Source: Flavobacteriia bacterium (GTDB lineage: Bacteria; Bacteroidota; Bacteroidia; Flavobacteriales_D; Crocinitomicaceae). From it: 61,559 bases of DNA. Position 1 is the first letter of the stretch, and the number at the start of each line of letters is the position of its first letter. Location: NCBI GenBank assembly GCA_009924735.1, contig RFQZ01000012.1, positions 1 through 61,559 of the forward strand, in the 5' to 3' direction. Below are positions 3,681 to 61,559 of this stretch, one piece after another. The notes under the pieces were generated by a model. That model saw only the letters and a program-made list of their open reading frames with translations. It did not search any database and was not told the origin of the DNA. The position numbers were made by a program, and so were the translations under genes.

Positions 3681-6272
3681 CTATATTTTTCCGGCCAACG
3701 TAACCGCTTTTCGTTTGGCAAAGAGCAACCCACCATCCAAGGTGAAGGCTTCAAACAATACCACATAAACACCTATGGAAGCTTTGGTTTGATCGTCTTT
3801 CACGCCATCCCACGTAAGGGTTCCTTCTGTACCCAACAATTGGTTTTTAAACAAGGACCGAATGATCCTTCCGCGTTCGTCAAAAATGGTTACCGTACCC
3901 AGACAATTCGCTTGTGCCATTTGGTAACTGGCTTGCATAACATCCACATTTCCATCCATGTCGGGTGAAAACACCTCATTTTGCAATTCAAAAGCGCCGT
4001 TCACTGTCACGGGAGAATACTGAGAGTTTTTGAGGCCTGGGGTACCAAACTTTACCGCTTCGGCTGCACTGTGCCAATTTTTCCCGTCACTTGATGGGCC
4101 CAGGGGATCCAATCTTTCCAAAGAAACACCGTCGACATCGTCCAACAAAGGAAATTGCCATTCATTGTTGTATTTTACCAAATCCAATAAAAGCTGACTG
4201 TTGTTAAACAAATACACACTCCCTGAATCGTTGTTGTAGGCAGGCAAGTCCGTATAGACAAATGTCCCATCTGCATGGGTTGGATAGGCTTGCTTGGCAA
4301 ACAAAGAATCGTCGCCTAGGACAGCATATCCGCCGGGTTTCAATAAATAATGTTGTGGAATCACTTTGAAATTGGCAATCGTATCGTTGTCAAAATTTGC
4401 GAAAATCAAGTCCTTTAAATCAAACATCTTGTTGGAAGTGTTGTAAAGCTCAATCCAATCTGACCCATTGTTGTAAGGATTTTGAAGGATTTCATTGATG
4501 ACGATCTCTCCAGCCAGCGGTATTTCTGTCAAGGCAAAATTGGCGGTGATGGACTGGGAATTGATCCAACAATCCGCGGCGTTTGTAATCGTCACCGAAT
4601 AAATTTGAGAAGGAATTAAATTCTCTACAAACTGAAGAATCACGGTATTGCTGTATTGACTTTGTGCGTAAATCAAAGAAGGGGTAAGGTTGGGGGAAAA
4701 TTGGTAGCTGGCATTGACCAAACTTGAGGAATCCATTCCTTCGCTGAACCAGATTTGCAAGAAGTTAGGAGCCAAGGCTTGGAGCATGTTAATACCGGGC
4801 GCCAGGGTGTCTGGACTGAGGTCGTTCACAGAATTTACAAACCCAGGCGTTCCGCCCAAAAGGTCATTCGATGCGGTCCAATTGTTTACATCGGAACAAG
4901 GGTCATTCGGGTTGATTAATTCCAAGGTATAACCACCGTCCATCTTCACTGCATCGTTGTACCAATCATCCGTGTACACCACCAAATCAAGCAAATGATT
5001 GGCATTGTCCATTAATTTCACACTGTCGCCCGCATTGTTCAAAGAGGGGAAGCTTGTAACCCCAATGGCTGAGGTATTTAAAAACAAGGGAATGCTTGCC
5101 GTCGCCGTTAAAACTTTGTATTCGCCAGGTAAAATCCATCCGGAAGAAATCACACCTGAAGAAGAACCGTCTGTAATTTTAAAACCCGAGAGATTGAATA
5201 TTTTGTTACTCACATTGTGAACTTCAACGAATTCTACAGCGGGCAATCCAATCACAGGACTTGGGTCTGGGAAAAACTCGTTTATGATGAGGTCACCTAC
5301 CACCGCGCTGTCAGAAACCAGGTATTGAAAATTTCCTGTAAGCGGTCCGGAAATGTTGTTGTTCAAATCTGAAACATTGGTTGTATTCAAAACATAGCTG
5401 GTTCCGTTGGTGAGGTTGGTGGCAAGCACAGCATGCACCAAGGCGGTATTGATGGGATCCAAGGTTAGTGAAGAGATGTTTACCGTTGGGGTAATGCCGT
5501 AGGAAGCCAAATTTTGAGCGGAAGCCATGGTGACGGATTCGTTATAGAGAATGTCCAATTGGTTCGCAGAGATTACGCTGACCGCACTTAACGCCGGTGG
5601 GACGAGGTCCAAAATCTCATTGCCAATGTACACTTCGTCGTAATAAAATTTTGTAGCGTTGCTCACGGTGTAGGTGCATGACACTCCGAAATGGGTTCCT
5701 ATCAAGGTACTTACATCGTTTCCGGTTCCTTGTAAAATGAAATTGCTTCCCCCGGCGAGGTCTGCGAACAAAGACCAAAGTCCAGCATTGGTACGGATTA
5801 CTTTGACATTTGCATTGAAACTTGCAGCGATTTGCCCATTCACTCCGGCACAAATTTGCGTGGATACCCCACTGGCCAATTTAAACAAACGAATGGCGTC
5901 GGTAGACCCCGTTTCTCCAAATTGAAGGTAATAACCGTTTTGAACCAAAGTCAAGTCACTGTTGTCAGCAGTTAAGTAAACCCGTCCATAATTGCTTGAA
6001 GAAGGCGCAAAAGTTTGCCTAACATGGATTCTCCACTCTTTGTTGCCAGTAAAATTCGCAAGCAAGTGCGGGGTTGAGAGGATGGAGGTGTCTGCTGCCA
6101 AACTGTTCAATTGCAATTCCTTCGCTGCATTGACGATGAAATTCCCCGTGGCGCCATTCCAAGTTGGACTTTGGGTGAAATCACCATCCGTAAAATTGTC
6201 TGTAACCTGACCAAATGCTACGTTTGAGGTAAAAAAGAAAAAAAGCATTGAGAAATAGGTAATCTGTCTCAT
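3681..6272 (-). CDS. secreted lamin-tail-domain protein
   Basis: An 863-residue exported protein. A signal peptide (MRQITYFSMLFFFFTSNVAFGQ) is followed by a lectin/laminin-like region (about 25-220), an Ig-like SbsA-type segment (about 225-320, ending NISGPLTGNFQYLVSD), and two lamin-tail-like (LTD) regions. The LTDs lie near residues 330-460 (GDLIINEFFPDPSP, FVEVHNVSNKIFNLSGFKI) and 590-720 (GEIVINEILQNPYNNGSDWI, ELYNTSNKMFDLKD). The C-terminus is FlgD-like (FDERGRIIRSLF, GTLTWDGVKDD, GVYVVLFEAF), which in this phylum often precedes or replaces a T9SS signal. It is probably a surface or extracellular protein. It is directly followed by the LETM1-related gene with no gap. Biological role unknown. 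Confidence 0.8.
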   Translation of the reverse strand: MRQITYFSMLFFFFTSNVAFGQVTDNFTDGDFTQSPTWNGATGNFIVNAAKELQLNSLAADTSILSTPHLLANFTGNKEWRIHVRQTFAPSSSNYGRVYLTADNSDLTLVQNGYYLQFGETGSTDAIRLFKLASGVSTQICAGVNGQIAASFNANVKVIRTNAGLWSLFADLAGGSNFILQGTGNDVSTLIGTHFGVSCTYTVSNATKFYYDEVYIGNEILDLVPPALSAVSVISANQLDILYNESVTMASAQNLASYGITPTVNISSLTLDPINTALVHAVLATNLTNGTSYVLNTTNVSDLNNNISGPLTGNFQYLVSDSAVVGDLIINEFFPDPSPVIGLPAVEFVEVHNVSNKIFNLSGFKITDGSSSGVISSGWILPGEYKVLTATASIPLFLNTSAIGVTSFPSLNNAGDSVKLMDNANHLLDLVVYTDDWYNDAVKMDGGYTLELINPNDPCSDVNNWTASNDLLGGTPGFVNSVNDLSPDTLAPGINMLQALAPNFLQIWFSEGMDSSSLVNASYQFSPNLTPSLIYAQSQYSNTVILQFVENLIPSQIYSVTITNAADCWINSQSITANFALTEIPLAGEIVINEILQNPYNNGSDWIELYNTSNKMFDLKDLIFANFDNDTIANFKVIPQHYLLKPGGYAVLGDDSLFAKQAYPTHADGTFVYTDLPAYNNDSGSVYLFNNSQLLLDLVKYNNEWQFPLLDDVDGVSLERLDPLGPSSDGKNWHSAAEAVKFGTPGLKNSQYSPVTVNGAFELQNEVFSPDMDGNVDVMQASYQMAQANCLGTVTIFDERGRIIRSLFKNQLLGTEGTLTWDGVKDDQTKASIGVYVVLFEAFTLDGGLLFAKRKAVTLAGKI

Positions 6273-57750: not shown

Positions 57751-57921
57751 AATATTATATTTTTGTTTGTCCTACTCTTATGGATTTTCAGATTACTCCT
57801 TTTTTTTTATGTGGTTAAACTATCTCCACTTTTTATATTTTTCGATTCTATAATATTGGTTGTTTATACACTTCTGTTTTCAAACCATCTTAATATTTCC
57901 CACAAATTTCTAATCAATTAA

Positions 57922-57980: not shown

Positions 57981-58017
57981 TTTGCAAAGCCCAAACAGAT
58001 TGGGGTTATTTGTTCCA

Positions 58018-58025
58018 TAAATTTG
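58018..58025 (+). promoter_or_regulatory. -7 box TAAATTTG of the WYL regulator
   Basis: TAAATTTG five bases before the ATG at 58031, a very short or absent leader. Confidence 0.5.
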
Positions 58026-58030
58026 GTTTC

Positions 58031-58843
58031 ATGCTTAATCAACATAAAATACTTCGGGTTTTACAACTCATTGCCTACCTTCAAGAATCCCAACATAAAA
58101 GCATCCAGCAACTCTCTTCTTTTCTTGAAACAACAGAAAGAACAGTCTACCGCTACCTCGACCTCCTACGTGAATGTGGCTTTAACCTTCACAAAGATGC
58201 GGGACAGCGTTATTTTATTGAGAAAGAAGATGCTGATGGGGTTCATTTCAGTCAAGAAGAAGCACAATTTCTCAAAGAATTGGTTTTGACTACGGGTAAC
58301 AAATCCAAACTCAAAGATTCAGTTTTGAGTAAAATCTACATGGGATCTGAACTGCCAATGGTTGCGGCGCACCTGCACAATGCCAAAAACGGTAAAACCG
58401 TGGAACGGCTCACCAAAGCCATGATGAACAAAGAACAGGTAGTCTTGAAGAAATACCAGTCGATTAACTCTGAAACCATTTCCGACAGGGTGGTAGAACC
58501 CTTTGGATTTACGGATAATTACCATACCGTTATGGCATTCGAACCCGCATCTAAAAAGAACAAAACGTTCAATATTGACAGAATTGGGTCGGTGGAATAC
58601 CTTACCTTGCCTTTTAAAAACGAAGCCAAACACGAGCAACAGATACCAGATGTATTCGGTTTCGCTTATTCAGGACAGAAACATCCTGTGAAGCTGGAAC
58701 TCAGCCTCAAGCAATTTTTATTATTGAAAGACCAGTACCCACTCGTGGCGCCCTTTGTGAAGTATAATTCCACACTGGACAAATATGTGTTGGTGGTGGA
58801 AGTGAATGATACGAGGGTGGTGGATGCAATCAGAATCTCTTAG
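58031..58843 (+). CDS. HTH/WYL-domain transcriptional regulator
   Basis: A 270-residue cytoplasmic DNA-binding protein from ATG 58031 (MLNQHKILRVLQLIAYLQES). A winged helix-turn-helix occupies about residues 1-65 (SIQQLSSFLETTERTVYRYL, DLLRECGF). The WYL sensor domain follows at about 135-215 (SDRVVEPFGFTDNYHTVMAF, NIDRIGSVEYL), and a C-terminal WCX-like part ends it. Regulators of this build (BrxR, CapW) repress defence islands and sense nucleic-acid-derived ligands. The gene lies directly before hsdM (49-base gap) and downstream of two operator-like repeats, so it probably controls itself and the locus. It could act on hsdM and abiF alike. Confidence 0.85.
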   Translation: MLNQHKILRVLQLIAYLQESQHKSIQQLSSFLETTERTVYRYLDLLRECGFNLHKDAGQRYFIEKEDADGVHFSQEEAQFLKELVLTTGNKSKLKDSVLSKIYMGSELPMVAAHLHNAKNGKTVERLTKAMMNKEQVVLKKYQSINSETISDRVVEPFGFTDNYHTVMAFEPASKKNKTFNIDRIGSVEYLTLPFKNEAKHEQQIPDVFGFAYSGQKHPVKLELSLKQFLLLKDQYPLVAPFVKYNSTLDKYVLVVEVNDTRVVDAIRIS

Positions 58844-58892: not shown

Positions 58893-60620
58893 ATGAAAAA
58901 CGTTAAAGAATCAGCAAATTTTATTTGGTCAATTGCAGACCTACTTCGAGGTGACTATAAGCAAAGTGACTATGGGAAGATTATTTTACCGTTAACAGTA
59001 ATAAGACGATTGGATTGTGTGCTAGAAAGTACCAAAGCGGATGTACTTAAGAAGTATGACCAACTGAAAACAACCAACGTTGAGAACCTTGACCCGATTT
59101 TAAACAAAACGGCTGGTTTCAAGTTCCACAACAAAAGCCAATTCGACTTTGAGAAGCTAATAGCCGACCCAAATAACATAGCATCAAATCTAAGAAACTA
59201 CATCAACGGATTCTCAGAGGATGCAAGAGAAATCATTGAACAATTTGAGTTTGAAAACCAAATAAATAAGATGGATGATGCCAACTTGTTGTTTATGGTG
59301 GTGAAGCGTTTCCAAGAAATCGACTTGCACCCAGACCGTATTTCAAGTATGGAAATGGGTTATATGTTTGAAGAACTGATTAGAAAATTCGCTGAGATTT
59401 CGAACGAAACCGCTGGGGAACACTTTACACCTAGAGAGGTAATCAAGTTGATGGTGAACATACTATTCTTGAATGACCGAGATATTTTAACCAAAAAAGG
59501 TATTACCAAAACGATATACGATAGTTGTGCGGGAACAGGAGGCATGCTTTCTGTAGCCGAAGAATATCTGCACGAATTGAATCCAGATGCACGTTTGGAG
59601 GTATTTGGTCAAGAACTGAATCCAGAATCGTATGCTATCTGTAAATCAGATTTGTTGATTAAAGGTCAAAACGCATCCAACATCAAAAAAGGCAACAGTA
59701 TATCTGAAGACCAATTATCCAACGAGAAATTCGATTACTTGATTACCAATCCACCTTTCGGTGTGAAATGGGAAAAGTTTGGAAAGAAAGTTAAAGAGGA
59801 ACATGAACAGTTGGGGCATGGTGGGCGATTTGGAGCTGGATTACCATCGGTAAGTGATGGTTCGTTTCTGTTTTTGATGCACTTGATGAGCAAGATGAAA
59901 CCAGAAGGTTCTCGACTGGCTATTGTATTCAACGGTTCTCCACTTTTCTCTGGTTCTCCAAGCAAAACTAAAAACGAGAGTAGTATTCGTCAATGGATAA
60001 TCGAAAACGACTTCCTAGAGGCTGTAATTGCGTTGCCAAATCAGTTGTTTTATAACACAGGTATTTCAACGTATATCTGGGTAATATCCAATCACAAACC
60101 AGCAAACAGAAAAGGCAAAGTTCAGTTGATTAACGGAGTTGATTTCTTCAAGAAAATGAGCAAATCATTGGGTGACAAACGAAACGAATTATCTGATGAG
60201 CACATTGCTCAAATTACAAAAATATACGGTGAATTTAAAGAAGGTGATTACTCAAAAGTATTTGACAACAAAGCTTTTGGTTATTCAAAAGTAACGGTAG
60301 AACGACCAGAACGGGCTTCGACAGGCTCAGCCCAGGGAGAAATAGTAAGAGATAAAAAAGGCAACCCAAAACCAGATTCATCTTTGCGAGATACTGAAAA
60401 CATTCCGTTGCTAATGGATGTTCAAGAATACATGGAGAAAGAAGTGTTGCCACACGTGCCAGATGCGTGGATTGACCACAGCAAAACCAACGTAGGATAT
60501 GAAGTAAACTTTACCAAGTATTTCTATCAATACAAGCCTTTACGTTCATTGGACGAAATTAGAAAGGATATCATGGCTATTGAGCAAGAAACAGATGGAT
60601 TATTAAAAGAAATAATTTGA
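58893..60620 (+). CDS. hsdM: type I restriction-modification methyltransferase subunit HsdM
   Basis: A 575-residue adenine-N6 methyltransferase. HsdM_N helical domain (FIWSIADLLRGDYKQSDYGK, about residues 10-30); SAM motif I in IYDSCAGTGGMLSVAEEYL (about 208-226); catalytic NPPFGVKWEKF (about 287-297). The C-terminal region after residue 470 holds a stretch (RASTGSAQGE) encoded by a palindromic element at 60313-60333, whose insertion kept the frame. HsdM needs HsdS for target recognition and HsdR for cutting; neither is in the window, but they may follow the abi gene beyond its end. Confidence 0.95.
   Translation: MKNVKESANFIWSIADLLRGDYKQSDYGKIILPLTVIRRLDCVLESTKADVLKKYDQLKTTNVENLDPILNKTAGFKFHNKSQFDFEKLIADPNNIASNLRNYINGFSEDAREIIEQFEFENQINKMDDANLLFMVVKRFQEIDLHPDRISSMEMGYMFEELIRKFAEISNETAGEHFTPREVIKLMVNILFLNDRDILTKKGITKTIYDSCAGTGGMLSVAEEYLHELNPDARLEVFGQELNPESYAICKSDLLIKGQNASNIKKGNSISEDQLSNEKFDYLITNPPFGVKWEKFGKKVKEEHEQLGHGGRFGAGLPSVSDGSFLFLMHLMSKMKPEGSRLAIVFNGSPLFSGSPSKTKNESSIRQWIIENDFLEAVIALPNQLFYNTGISTYIWVISNHKPANRKGKVQLINGVDFFKKMSKSLGDKRNELSDEHIAQITKIYGEFKEGDYSKVFDNKAFGYSKVTVERPERASTGSAQGEIVRDKKGNPKPDSSLRDTENIPLLMDVQEYMEKEVLPHVPDAWIDHSKTNVGYEVNFTKYFYQYKPLRSLDEIRKDIMAIEQETDGLLKEII
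60313..60333. repeat. palindromic dispersed-repeat-like element inside hsdM
   Basis: GGGCT and AGCCC flank TTCGACAGGCT, giving a 5-bp-stem hairpin. The core TTCGACAGGCTCAG is a motif I remember as a widespread interspersed repeat in many bacterial genomes. Here it is read in frame as ASTGSAQ near codon 475 of hsdM, in a low-complexity hinge. Confidence 0.55.
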
Positions 60621-60644
60621 GTGGGATGAAATTAAAATTTATTT

Positions 60645-60652
60645 ATACCTTT
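60645..60652 (+). promoter_or_regulatory. -7 box TACCTTTG for the ncRNA
   Basis: A perfect TAnnTTTG match in the gap between hsdM and the abi gene. No TTTG at the usual distance (nearest is 26 bases upstream). Confidence 0.5.
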
Positions 60653-60656
60653 GCAA

Positions 60657-60775
60657 TCTCATTAGCGAAACAAATGTTTTATTTGCTTGTTAATGAATCA
60701 AGTAGCTTTTTTCTAAAATTTAAGATAATATACCTCCCAGGCTTGCATTCGTGCAGCACACTTGGGGGGTTTTCT
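60657..60775 (+). ncRNA. abiF-associated structured RNA (candidate)
   Basis: The 168-base gap before the abi gene contains an RNA-like unit. A 5' hairpin CAAAT-GTTTT-ATTTG lies at 60671-60685. Near the end ACCTCCCAGG (60732-60741) pairs with CTTGGGGGGT (60761-60770) over ten pairs including two G-U. It encloses TGCA-TTCG-TGCA (60744-60755), a stem with a UUCG tetraloop. A T-rich tail TTTTCTC follows the long stem, so it also resembles a terminator. A published 'abiF RNA motif' lies just upstream of abiF-type genes in this way. The 5' end is set by the -7 box; the exact ends are estimated. No protein is likely here (the 60-codon frame at 60617-60799 is spurious). Confidence 0.7.
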
Positions 60776-60788
60776 CATTTTAAAGGTT

Positions 60789-61559
60789 ATGGAGTTTAAG
60801 AAACCCCCTTTAACCCATCAAGAGCAGATTAGTCTTTGGAAAAGTAGAGGTCTAACCGTTGGCGACGAACAGCGTGCCATTCACTATTTGACAAATATAA
60901 GTTATTATCGATTGAGTGCTTATGCGCTCCCTTTTCAATTAGAAAAAGACGTTTTTGACAAAGGAACTGACTTTAACGATATTTTGAATTTATACCTTTT
61001 TGATAGGGAGTTAAGGTTATTAGTATTCAACGCAATTGAACGCCTTGAGGTCTCTATTAGAGCACGAATGATATACATTCTCTCTCATAAATATGGGGCA
61101 CATTGGCAGGATAATGCAAAGATTTACAAAGACCCTTATCGTGTAAAGAATAAGAAAACAGGAGAACATTTTACAATCGATGTGTACAATGAGGTGCAGG
61201 AAATAATTAGCCACTCCGCCAGAGACAAAAATCCAGAAACCTTTATCAAACACTATAAAAACAATTACCATAAACCAGTAAATCCTCCTTCTTGGATGTG
61301 CATCGAGGTTTTTACCTTAGGTCAATTATCTAAATTATTCAATGGTCTGAAAGAGAATACAGATAAACAATTAATAGCCACTGAATTTAGATTACACCAT
61401 ACGATTTTTAAATCCTGGTTGCATACGTTAACATATATACGAAATATATGTGGGCATCACGGTAGATTATGGAATAGGGAAATAGCTATTGAACCTATTT
61501 GGCTAAATAAAACTAATTTCCCATGGATAATTGACGACTTTAAGGAAGTAACAAATCGT
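60789..61559 (+). CDS. AbiF/AbiD-type (Abi_2) HEPN abortive-infection protein, partial
   Basis: Starts at ATG 60789 (MEFKKPPLTHQEQISLWKSR) and remains open for 257 codons to the end of the window, so the 3' end is missing (family length about 300). Abi_2 features: AIHYLTNISYYRLSAYALPF, then YLFDRELRLLVFNAIERLEV, and the HEPN active-site motif RNICGHHGRLWNR (RX4H). HEPN RNases of this group cleave RNA; AbiF has been reported, as I remember, to resemble ancestors of Cas13. A structured RNA lies 15-20 bases upstream, in the same orientation, and may guide or restrain the protein. The gene sits inside a type I restriction locus. Confidence 0.9.
   Translation, partial: MEFKKPPLTHQEQISLWKSRGLTVGDEQRAIHYLTNISYYRLSAYALPFQLEKDVFDKGTDFNDILNLYLFDRELRLLVFNAIERLEVSIRARMIYILSHKYGAHWQDNAKIYKDPYRVKNKKTGEHFTIDVYNEVQEIISHSARDKNPETFIKHYKNNYHKPVNPPSWMCIEVFTLGQLSKLFNGLKENTDKQLIATEFRLHHTIFKSWLHTLTYIRNICGHHGRLWNREIAIEPIWLNKTNFPWIIDDFKEVTNR

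Follow-up and report, generated by a model that had tools for sequence, protein, structure and literature searches.

An abiF gene and a structured RNA lie within a type I restriction-modification operon

The window, by which we mean the whole stretch of 61,559 nucleotides that was analyzed, ends where its contig ends (C4, 61,559 bases), and this end falls inside an abiF gene. The gene (60789..61559, plus strand; codons 1 to 257 of 317) encodes an Abi_2 HEPN RNase, as judged from the Pfam family PF07751, from the protein P0001 and from alignment with PDB entry 8vz6. Upstream on the same strand lie hsdM, encoding a type I methyltransferase (58893..60620; N6_Mtase, E = 7.8e-63; HsdM_N, E = 1.6e-27), and, 5' of hsdM, a gene for an HTH/WYL regulator that possibly belongs to the restriction-modification (RM) locus (58010..58843; HTH_11, E = 1.7e-07; WYL under the cut-off).

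An earlier, sequence-only reading of this DNA had placed a -7 box and a two-hairpin RNA in the gap between hsdM and abiF, and we found both. A motif scan located the Bacteroidota-type promoter box TAnnTTTG (TACCTTTG) at 60646..60653 on the plus strand, the lone copy within 60601-60700, and resembling boxes were seen by eye upstream of the motif in many relatives. The region 60655-60790 folds at -36.2 kcal/mol compared with -22.7 ± 3.7 kcal/mol for shuffled sequences (z = -3.69), and 2 of 200 shuffles fold as well. We predict here a small RNA of about 115 to 120 nt (60659..60780, plus strand) whose 5' end would lie 5 to 8 nt past the -7 box and whose 3' end would fall within a U-rich tract. Its parts, all on the plus strand, are a 5' accessory hairpin of 16 pairs in two helices (60659..60696), identified by pairing in the window and four relatives; an abiF-type motif (60731..60770), matched by a covariance model, R1, that was built without the window's clade; and the U-rich tract, read from the sequence immediately 3' of helix P1 of the motif (60770..60781).

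The C-terminal 46 residues of AbiF are encoded on a second contig, C35 (G000:C35:3-140), and P0001 is a complete 317-aa copy of the protein that is 100% identical across the part in the window. Because of this full-length copy and the synteny in genome G103, we infer that C4 joins C35 and that abiF runs from one onto the other. On C35, the first bases of hsdS (Methylase_S) overlap the stop codon of abiF, and a DUF1016/YhcG nuclease gene and hsdR follow.

Three minor features of the surroundings were recorded. The hsdR gene (L045, on G000:C35, 2728-5763) has one in-frame stop between its HSDR_N and domain-3 parts, which is either a true inactivation or a sequencing error; unlike L045, the hsdR region of G103 has a frame without a stop. 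A short stretch of hsdM (window about 60312-60338) reads ERASTGSAQGE and resembles what we take to be a dispersed repeat of Bacteroidota. On the minus strand at 57765-57834, an Rfam DUF805 RNA (55 bits, cut-off 51.1) sits right 5' of a minus-strand gene of 206 aa without a Pfam family.

The protein has the predicted fold and the catalytic motif of PbAbiF

The window protein matched Abi_2 (PF07751) at E = 4.5e-58 (197 bits, cut-off 25.6), in agreement with the first assignment of the gene; PADLOC assigned the protein to AbiD. Abi_2 was the sole Pfam domain of P0001, and the AlphaFold model of P0001 had a mean pLDDT of 92.1. When the PDB was searched with this model by using Foldseek, 115 fold matches were obtained at E ≤ 10 (50 of the 115 listed), and the one at E ≤ 0.001 was the PbAbiF dimer with its noncoding RNA (8vz6; E = 1.1e-20; TM 0.84/0.89). 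Comparison of the completed protein with Abi_2/AbiF HMMs had been proposed beforehand as a check; for the full 317 aa, Pfam returned Abi_2 and the fold search PbAbiF. A sequence search of the PDB gave 8vz6 as the lone match at E ≤ 0.001 (E = 1.3e-49).

The RNICGH sequence that had been pointed out as an R-X4-H motif is present at residues 218 to 223 (R218-N-I-C-G-H223, encoded at 61440-61457), and in the sequence alignment with 8vz6, R218 and H223 fall on R210 and H215 of PbAbiF. Residues R218, N219, and H223 were unchanged across 50 aligned homologs (drawn from the 120 listed among 4,523 hits). A PbAbiF variant with both R210A and H215A is inactive, according to the available text of a paper that cites the primary work (PMC12373285). 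Judging from the sequence and the structural model, the window gene is an abiF gene whose product has the predicted PbAbiF fold and the catalytic R-X4-H motif.

Cas13 has been proposed to descend from AbiF, and in this sense the kinship with the Cas13 lineage that had been suggested stands; there is no sign of RNA guidance here. We rejected Cas13 as an identity for the protein itself, which is of 317 aa with one Abi_2 domain and not a large two-HEPN effector, and whose lone PDB fold match at E ≤ 0.001 was PbAbiF (50 of 115 matches listed). No Rfam CRISPR repeat was found in the window at the gathering cut-off.

The window RNA is a variant abiF RNA

Does the RNA upstream of the gene belong to the abiF RNA family? 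The Rfam model of this family, RF03085, gave no match to the window at the gathering cut-off and none to 60400-61000 at E ≤ 5. The Rfam search suggested with the original description was therefore negative, apparently because the apical loop has been rewritten, and membership was shown through relatives instead. An abiF-like hairpin was seen by eye 5' of abiF in 32 of 36 loci, several of them near-identical (e.g., L013/L026 and L017 to L020) and one (L016) ending at a contig end; by eye, the motif was absent upstream in the other four (L023, L024, L029, and L030). The hairpins fall into three sequence types: type A, ACCUCCCAUGCCUCUC..GCACACUUGGGGGGU; type B, with the core GCAUACCGUAAGAUCUGC; and type C, CGCUUCCC..AGCGCACC. 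In a sub-threshold scan of 16 loci with RF03085 (cut-off 37 bits), the type A rows L036, L008, L034, and L006 scored 36.3, 35.3, 34.5, and 33.6 bits (E = 0.007 to 0.033), and L037, L009, L007, and L038 scored 25.6 to 29.9 bits (E = 0.26 to 3). At E ≤ 10, no match was listed for the window clade (L002, L003, and L005) or for type B loci.

We built R1 from six type A rows (L006, L008, L036, L034, L007, and L012), excluding the window clade. Five of these rows (L036, L008, L034, L006, and L007) scored 27.1 to 36.3 bits with RF03085, and L012 had no listed match. The rows came from a six-row alignment; a mixed MAFFT alignment of 15 motifs was misaligned and went unused. R1 matched the window at 60731-60770 with 23.2 bits (E = 5.6e-4 over 235,976 bases from 22 sources; R1 E-values are rough, given a short calibration) and scored L003, L002, and L005 at 18.6 to 21.0 bits. 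One other match, at L045 7737-7785 (E = 0.63), was taken as chance. Since R1, a model without the window clade, matches 60731-60770, the comparison indicates that the window RNA is a variant abiF RNA in which the stem and the 3' bulge are kept, the apex is UGCA-UUCG-UGCA, and a 5' hairpin has been added. Together with the motif's place 5' of abiF in 32 of 36 loci, the R1 match upholds the proposed pairing of the RNA with AbiF.

None of the type B and type C loci given to R1 (L013, L015, L018, L038, L009, L091, L094, and L068) was matched at E ≤ 5, and therefore the RNAs are not all one family by one model. Types B and C are tied to type A by position before abiF, by shape, by sub-threshold RF03085 scores (type C), and by L007, L012, and L036, where type A motifs stand in tandem with B or C copies. 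Two phage RNAs, L062 and L064 (scores of 38.3 and 34.4), have the type A stem and bulge and a window-like 13-nt apex (UUGCGUUUAUGCA in L062, UUGCAUUCGUGCA in the window), and they bridge type A and the window RNA.

Within the window motif (all on the plus strand), P1 has 7 pairs (60732-60738/60764-60770) and P2 has 2 (60741-60742/60756-60757); a clade-specific apical hairpin with a UUCG loop (60744-60747/60752-60755, UGCA/UGCA) and the 3' bulge (60758-60763) complete it. The apical helix of L003 reads UGUA/UACA, a compensated change. The window RNA is like RF03085 in having a P1 of 6 to 7 pairs, a bulged A, P2, a 3' single-stranded bulge, and a final GGU; it differs in its apex, which is 13 nt and paired in the window and CUCUCAACGAU in RF03085, and it goes unscored by that model at E ≤ 5. 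The ten-pair stem with a UUCG loop first described for this RNA is indeed the single-sequence optimum for 60731-60770 (-19.1 kcal/mol), and the UUCG loop is there, but the relatives have in common the P1, P2, and apical structure (-15.3 kcal/mol). Single-sequence folding thus favors another pairing over P2; on comparative grounds, we prefer the family structure. A pattern for the motif matched once in the window and in 0 of 100 shuffles; as the window itself contributed to this pattern, the independent test is R1.

For the 5' hairpin, 81.3% of cells were paired in five sequences (the window and four relatives) compared with 28.8 to 46.3% in slid versions; the structure tested was derived from the window, which favors it, and L003 and L006, with other 5' sequences, were left out. 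Its covariation score of 0.369 was matched by 4 of 500 shuffles, and its count of five pairs changed on both sides was matched by 65 of 500.

A Neorhizobium plasmid (L043, 4904-4958) carries an abiF-type RNA in which, by eye, a long hairpin replaces the apical loop. This apical hairpin apparently arose independently of the window clade.

The RNA-abiF pair occupies a slot between hsdM and hsdS

Six loci have an hsdM that shares 84% identity or more with that of the window (G000, L002, L003, G103, G055, and G175:C59). In five of them abiF lies between hsdM and hsdS, overlapping hsdS or within 10 nt of it, in keeping with the original view of a pair embedded in an RM locus and adjoining a type I methylase gene (58893..60620 in the window). 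In the sixth (L034; hsdM 91% identical over 460 residues), the RNA is kept and abiF is replaced by another ORF. All six loci were located through abiF or the RNA and are therefore silent on the frequency of similar hsdM genes without either. A protein scan of the genome contigs gave two loci only, and a protein search at E ≤ 1e-60 gave no new locus in the order draw and six in the class draw. The type I genes near abiF in G104, G216, and G488 are distant homologs.

A search with the RNA pattern ATAATANACCTN{10,30}GCACACTTNNGNGG hit 6 genomes in the order draw (399 genomes) and 3 in the class draw (395 genomes), seven different genomes in all; the reversed pattern had no match among the matches listed. 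Six of the seven matches lie directly 5' of abiF. The seventh is the locus on G175:C59 (L034 1499-2263), with the order hsdM, RNA, a 220-aa ORF, and hsdS, without abiF. This ORF has no Pfam family, and we take it to resemble a REP-associated transposase. In 28 genomes selected for carrying abiF, the type B core occurred at 15 places, each of them 5' of an abiF start; several of the places are near-identical, a type A motif lies between in G488, and G035:C89 shows the gene start only. In G103 (L046 9168-10962) and in L002 (2545-2823), part of the 3' end of hsdM recurs ahead of abiF, which suggests module exchange at the hsdM end; G103 has an additional DUF1016 and hsdS piece as well.

We consider it very probable that the locus joins an AbiF toxin and an RNA antitoxin within a type I RM operon (hsdM - RNA - abiF - hsdS - DUF1016 nuclease - hsdR). 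Could the cassette instead be passive cargo in a variable hsdM-hsdS slot, a stand-alone addiction module? The repeated hsdM pieces in G103 and L002 and the extra DUF1016 and hsdS piece in G103 would be expected of cargo, as would the other ORF that shares the slot with a kept RNA in G175:C59. This reading is a close contender to which we give slightly less than even weight; it is compatible with a defense role, and sequence hardly separates the two.

Stand-alone abiF-type RNAs are found in many phage contigs

If the RNA blocks a defense protein, phages would be expected to carry orphan copies of it. The AbiF protein itself found no match in the viral contigs searched. The type A/window-like pattern gave three viral stretches: L062 and L063, which are identical in sequence and lie near terminase, head-tail, and portal genes, and L064, which lies near a head maturation protease gene. 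None of these three whole records had Abi_2 at E ≤ 10. A tighter type A pattern gave four further stretches (two of them, L187 and L188, share a flank), all four above the RF03085 cut-off (38.1 to 40.9 bits). The 18-nt type B core occurred in at least 120 viral stretches and the reversed core in none. Another 6 stretches came from the type C pattern and 31 from the RF-type pattern, so that all five forms (window-like, types A, B, and C, and RF-type) recur in phages. In the 15 viral loci scanned, RF03085 gave no match to the type B core at E ≤ 5; Rfam thus misses some forms of abiF RNA.

Of 127 viral loci (120 of type B and 7 others) scanned with an Abi_2 profile that we built, one, L149, had a matching ORF, which lies beside the core; of the other 119 type B loci, 104 extend more than 900 nt downstream. 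PF07751 was found in 1 of 50 whole viral records (47 type B records, of 53 cluster representatives, plus L185, L187, and L188). Among the 37 type C and RF-type stretches, an Abi_2-like ORF was found in three (L205, L218, and L239) and, within the stretch available, in none of the remainder, of which L214, L226, L229, and L233 offered under 700 nt downstream to scan. Many viral records are fragments, so a phage may carry Abi_2 even where its record does not.

Clustering of the 116 type B copies that had 75 nt of sequence to either side gave 53 clusters. Their flanks formed a mean of 6.04 pairs with their own partners (range, 1 to 11) compared with 3.98 (SD, 0.20) when permuted (0 of 1000), a result that related clusters may inflate and in which the 18-nt core was fixed by the search. 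None of the 53 copies lay within an ATG ORF of at least 100 codons (background, 63%). TAnnTTTG occurred within 150 nt of 16 copies (background, 11.5%), a tRNA gene within 400 nt of 12 (background, 7.7%), and a T4 run within 30 nt of 34.

When three phage RNAs (type A and RF-type) served as blastn queries against named phages, 16, 52, and 74 records were listed at E ≤ 10, many of them weak. Matches of the L062 and L068 RNAs were weak and chance-like and were set aside, and the L066 form had no match. Ten regions were picked for variety, and eight scored above the RF03085 cut-off: Acj61 (58.0 bits), Thibault (54.9), S-CREM1 (52.2), T7-Ah (50.7), PZL-Ah8 (50.1), CGphi29 (50.1), vB_AhaP_PT2 (44.4), and Bromden (40.5). 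Mimi (33.0) and Pasto (30.3) scored below it. The RNA lies between connector and capsid assembly/scaffold genes in PZL-Ah8, PT2, and T7-Ah, and within 350 nt of an annotated tRNA in Bromden, Mimi, S-CREM1, and Thibault. The host genera of the picked phages were absent from the 84 records found by tblastn with P0001 at E ≤ 1e-5, a search that a divergent AbiF could escape. An abiF small RNA in S-CREM1 has been reported, along with three phage genomes in the Rfam family; the accessible part of that paper gives this RNA no anti-AbiF role (PMC9964418). In the accessible part of another, the role of the phage abiF small RNA is called unconfirmed (PMC12197685).

The abiF-type RNAs span unrelated phage groups, namely T7-like and T4-like phages, mycobacteriophages, cyanophages, and large Bacteroidota phages, often near tRNA genes. 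Their types match those beside bacterial abiF, and L062 has the apical extension of the window clade. From these sequences and by analogy, we lean toward the view that the stand-alone RNAs are a widespread counter-defense, solitary decoys that would occupy and silence host AbiF. Precedents for such mimicry, as described in the available parts of the sources, are the pseudo-ToxI of phage PhiTE against ToxIN (PMC3475682), RNA mimicry against CRISPR-Cas (PMC10651486), and an RNA inhibitor of Cas13 mentioned in PMC12948488. Like the Racr RNAs and rAcrVIA1 of the latter two papers, the abiF-type RNAs would be solitary RNAs with which phages mimic a host defense RNA; CRISPR-Cas is targeted there, whereas AbiF is the putative target here. 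The portions of the literature on AbiF, abiF RNA, and counter-defense that we searched held no proposal of phage abiF RNAs as anti-AbiF and no account of phage evasion of AbiF; an earlier mention in the primary AbiF-Cas13 paper or in the first description of the motif is possible. If the RNAs are decoys, AbiF is under real phage pressure, many phages being indicated, and RNA mimicry is a more general answer to RNA-controlled defense.

Alternatively, the phage copies may be terminators or processing hairpins of phage transcripts, with abiF having borrowed a phage element. The T4 runs (34 of 53) and nearby tRNA genes (12 of 53 within 400 nt; background, 7.7%) agree with this possibility, and some type B copies sit inside a longer conserved layout. 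We regard it as unlikely, given that type B stems vary yet pair with their own partners (6.04 versus 3.98 permuted, 0 of 1000), that each of the window-like, A, B, C, and RF-type forms turns up repeatedly in phages, and that abiF adjoins the type B core at all 15 of its bacterial places.

The longer layout was seen in L066, L077, L080, L083, and similar stretches, with CCCCTGTG..ATAGGCC upstream and TTATTGGGAAAG downstream of the type B copy. It matched no Rfam family in the loci scanned and is perhaps a larger phage RNA.

Proposed mode of action and relation to known systems

The unit is most likely a type III-like toxin-antitoxin or abortive-infection system and not Cas13. Our own analysis shows the gene family, the predicted fold, the catalytic motif, the kinship of the RNA, its conserved structure and position, and the orphan RNAs of phages; the toxicity of AbiF here, its neutralization, and its cleavage of RNA would be expected from published relatives, and the trigger, attenuation at the locus, and decoy action are our conjecture. 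The mode of action, at first called open, is less so in light of C. difficile, where, in the part of the report available, AbiF is toxic and the abiF RNA RCd22 neutralizes it in cis and in trans by direct binding (PMC12373285). One AbiFr RNA is bound per PbAbiF monomer, and C32 and U38 of its single-stranded bulge inhibit the RNase, according to the accessible text of PMC12737573; by analogy, this bulge would correspond to the 3' bulge kept in the window RNA.

We propose that the -7 promoter would drive an RNA of about 120 nt, with most transcripts ending at the abiF motif (the stem and then the U-tract) and occasional read-through giving abiF (and hsdS) mRNA. Through its abiF motif, the RNA would bind the AbiF dimer and block the R-X4-H RNase site. 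Infection that halts or depletes the short-lived RNA would free AbiF, which would then cut RNA and stop growth, and phages would answer with stand-alone abiF-type RNAs. The window motif probably doubles as a terminator or attenuator; by eye, a T-rich stretch lies 3' of the stem, just before the gene start, in many relatives. A terminator scan returned no report of the window motif, so the argument for attenuation draws on the sequence and on the relatives.

PrrC is an RNase guard within the type I RM operon EcoprrI, and PrrC-like anticodon nucleases are defined by an NTPase plus HEPN. The window resembles EcoprrI in having an RNase gene in a type I RM operon and differs in that its AbiF is without an NTPase domain (Pfam, P0001) and has an RNA partner. 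AbiF might nevertheless guard the RM complex as PrrC does, silenced by HsdM/S/R and released by anti-restriction proteins, with the RNA secondary. Its place exactly between hsdM and hsdS in five of six loci (hsdM at least 84% identical; all located through abiF or the RNA) would suit a guard, but farther abiF copies with the same RNA are unlinked to this hsdM, the sixth locus with a close hsdM has no abiF, the NTPase domain is lacking, and RNA control has been described in relatives without RM; we find such a role improbable. Least probable to us is that the RNA acts in cis only, as an attenuator or terminator that limits read-through into abiF (and hsdS) without binding AbiF, which the T-rich stretch after the stem in many relatives (by eye) and the lowering of abiF transcription in cis by RCd22 (PMC12373285, available text) would fit, but against which stand the loop and bulge letters conserved across the six type A rows beyond a terminator's needs, the phage orphan copies that have no abiF to attenuate, the trans activity and binding in one relative (PMC12373285), and the RNA-protein structure for another (PMC12737573).

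As a toxin with an RNA antitoxin, the window's pair is a genuine AbiF-RNA unit of a known kind, with a variant form of the RNA and in an RM operon. Like PbAbiF-AbiFr (Prevotellaceae, 8vz6) and, as far as the available descriptions go, AbiF-RCd22 (C. difficile phi027), it has an Abi_2 HEPN protein with the predicted PbAbiF fold and the R-X4-H motif and an abiF-motif RNA directly upstream. The window RNA has one abiF motif and a 5' hairpin, and its apical loop is replaced by a hairpin, whereas RCd22 carries the motif twice, has its terminator separate, and lacks a 5' hairpin of this kind; AbiF-RCd22 lies in a prophage lysis module and the window unit in an RM operon. With the type III systems (ToxIN, CptIN, and TenpIN), the window shares an RNA antitoxin 5' of an RNase gene; by contrast, its toxin belongs to another family (Abi_2 only, with no ToxN-family toxin found in P0001 by Pfam), and ToxIN-like tandem RNA repeats are absent, with one motif in the window and, by eye, two in L007, L012, L036, and L042. 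The variant RNA separates the parts that can change (the apical loop and the 5' extension) from those that are constant (P1 and the 3' bulge), and the window places this AbiF in a restriction operon. Of wider reach, and less expected, is how far abiF-type RNAs that stand alone have spread among phages; these RNAs may best be read as decoys.

In L042 (Picosynechococcus plasmid pAQ3), the two abiF-type motifs are at 3766-3807 and 3940-3978, before an Abi gene, and type I RM genes lie downstream.
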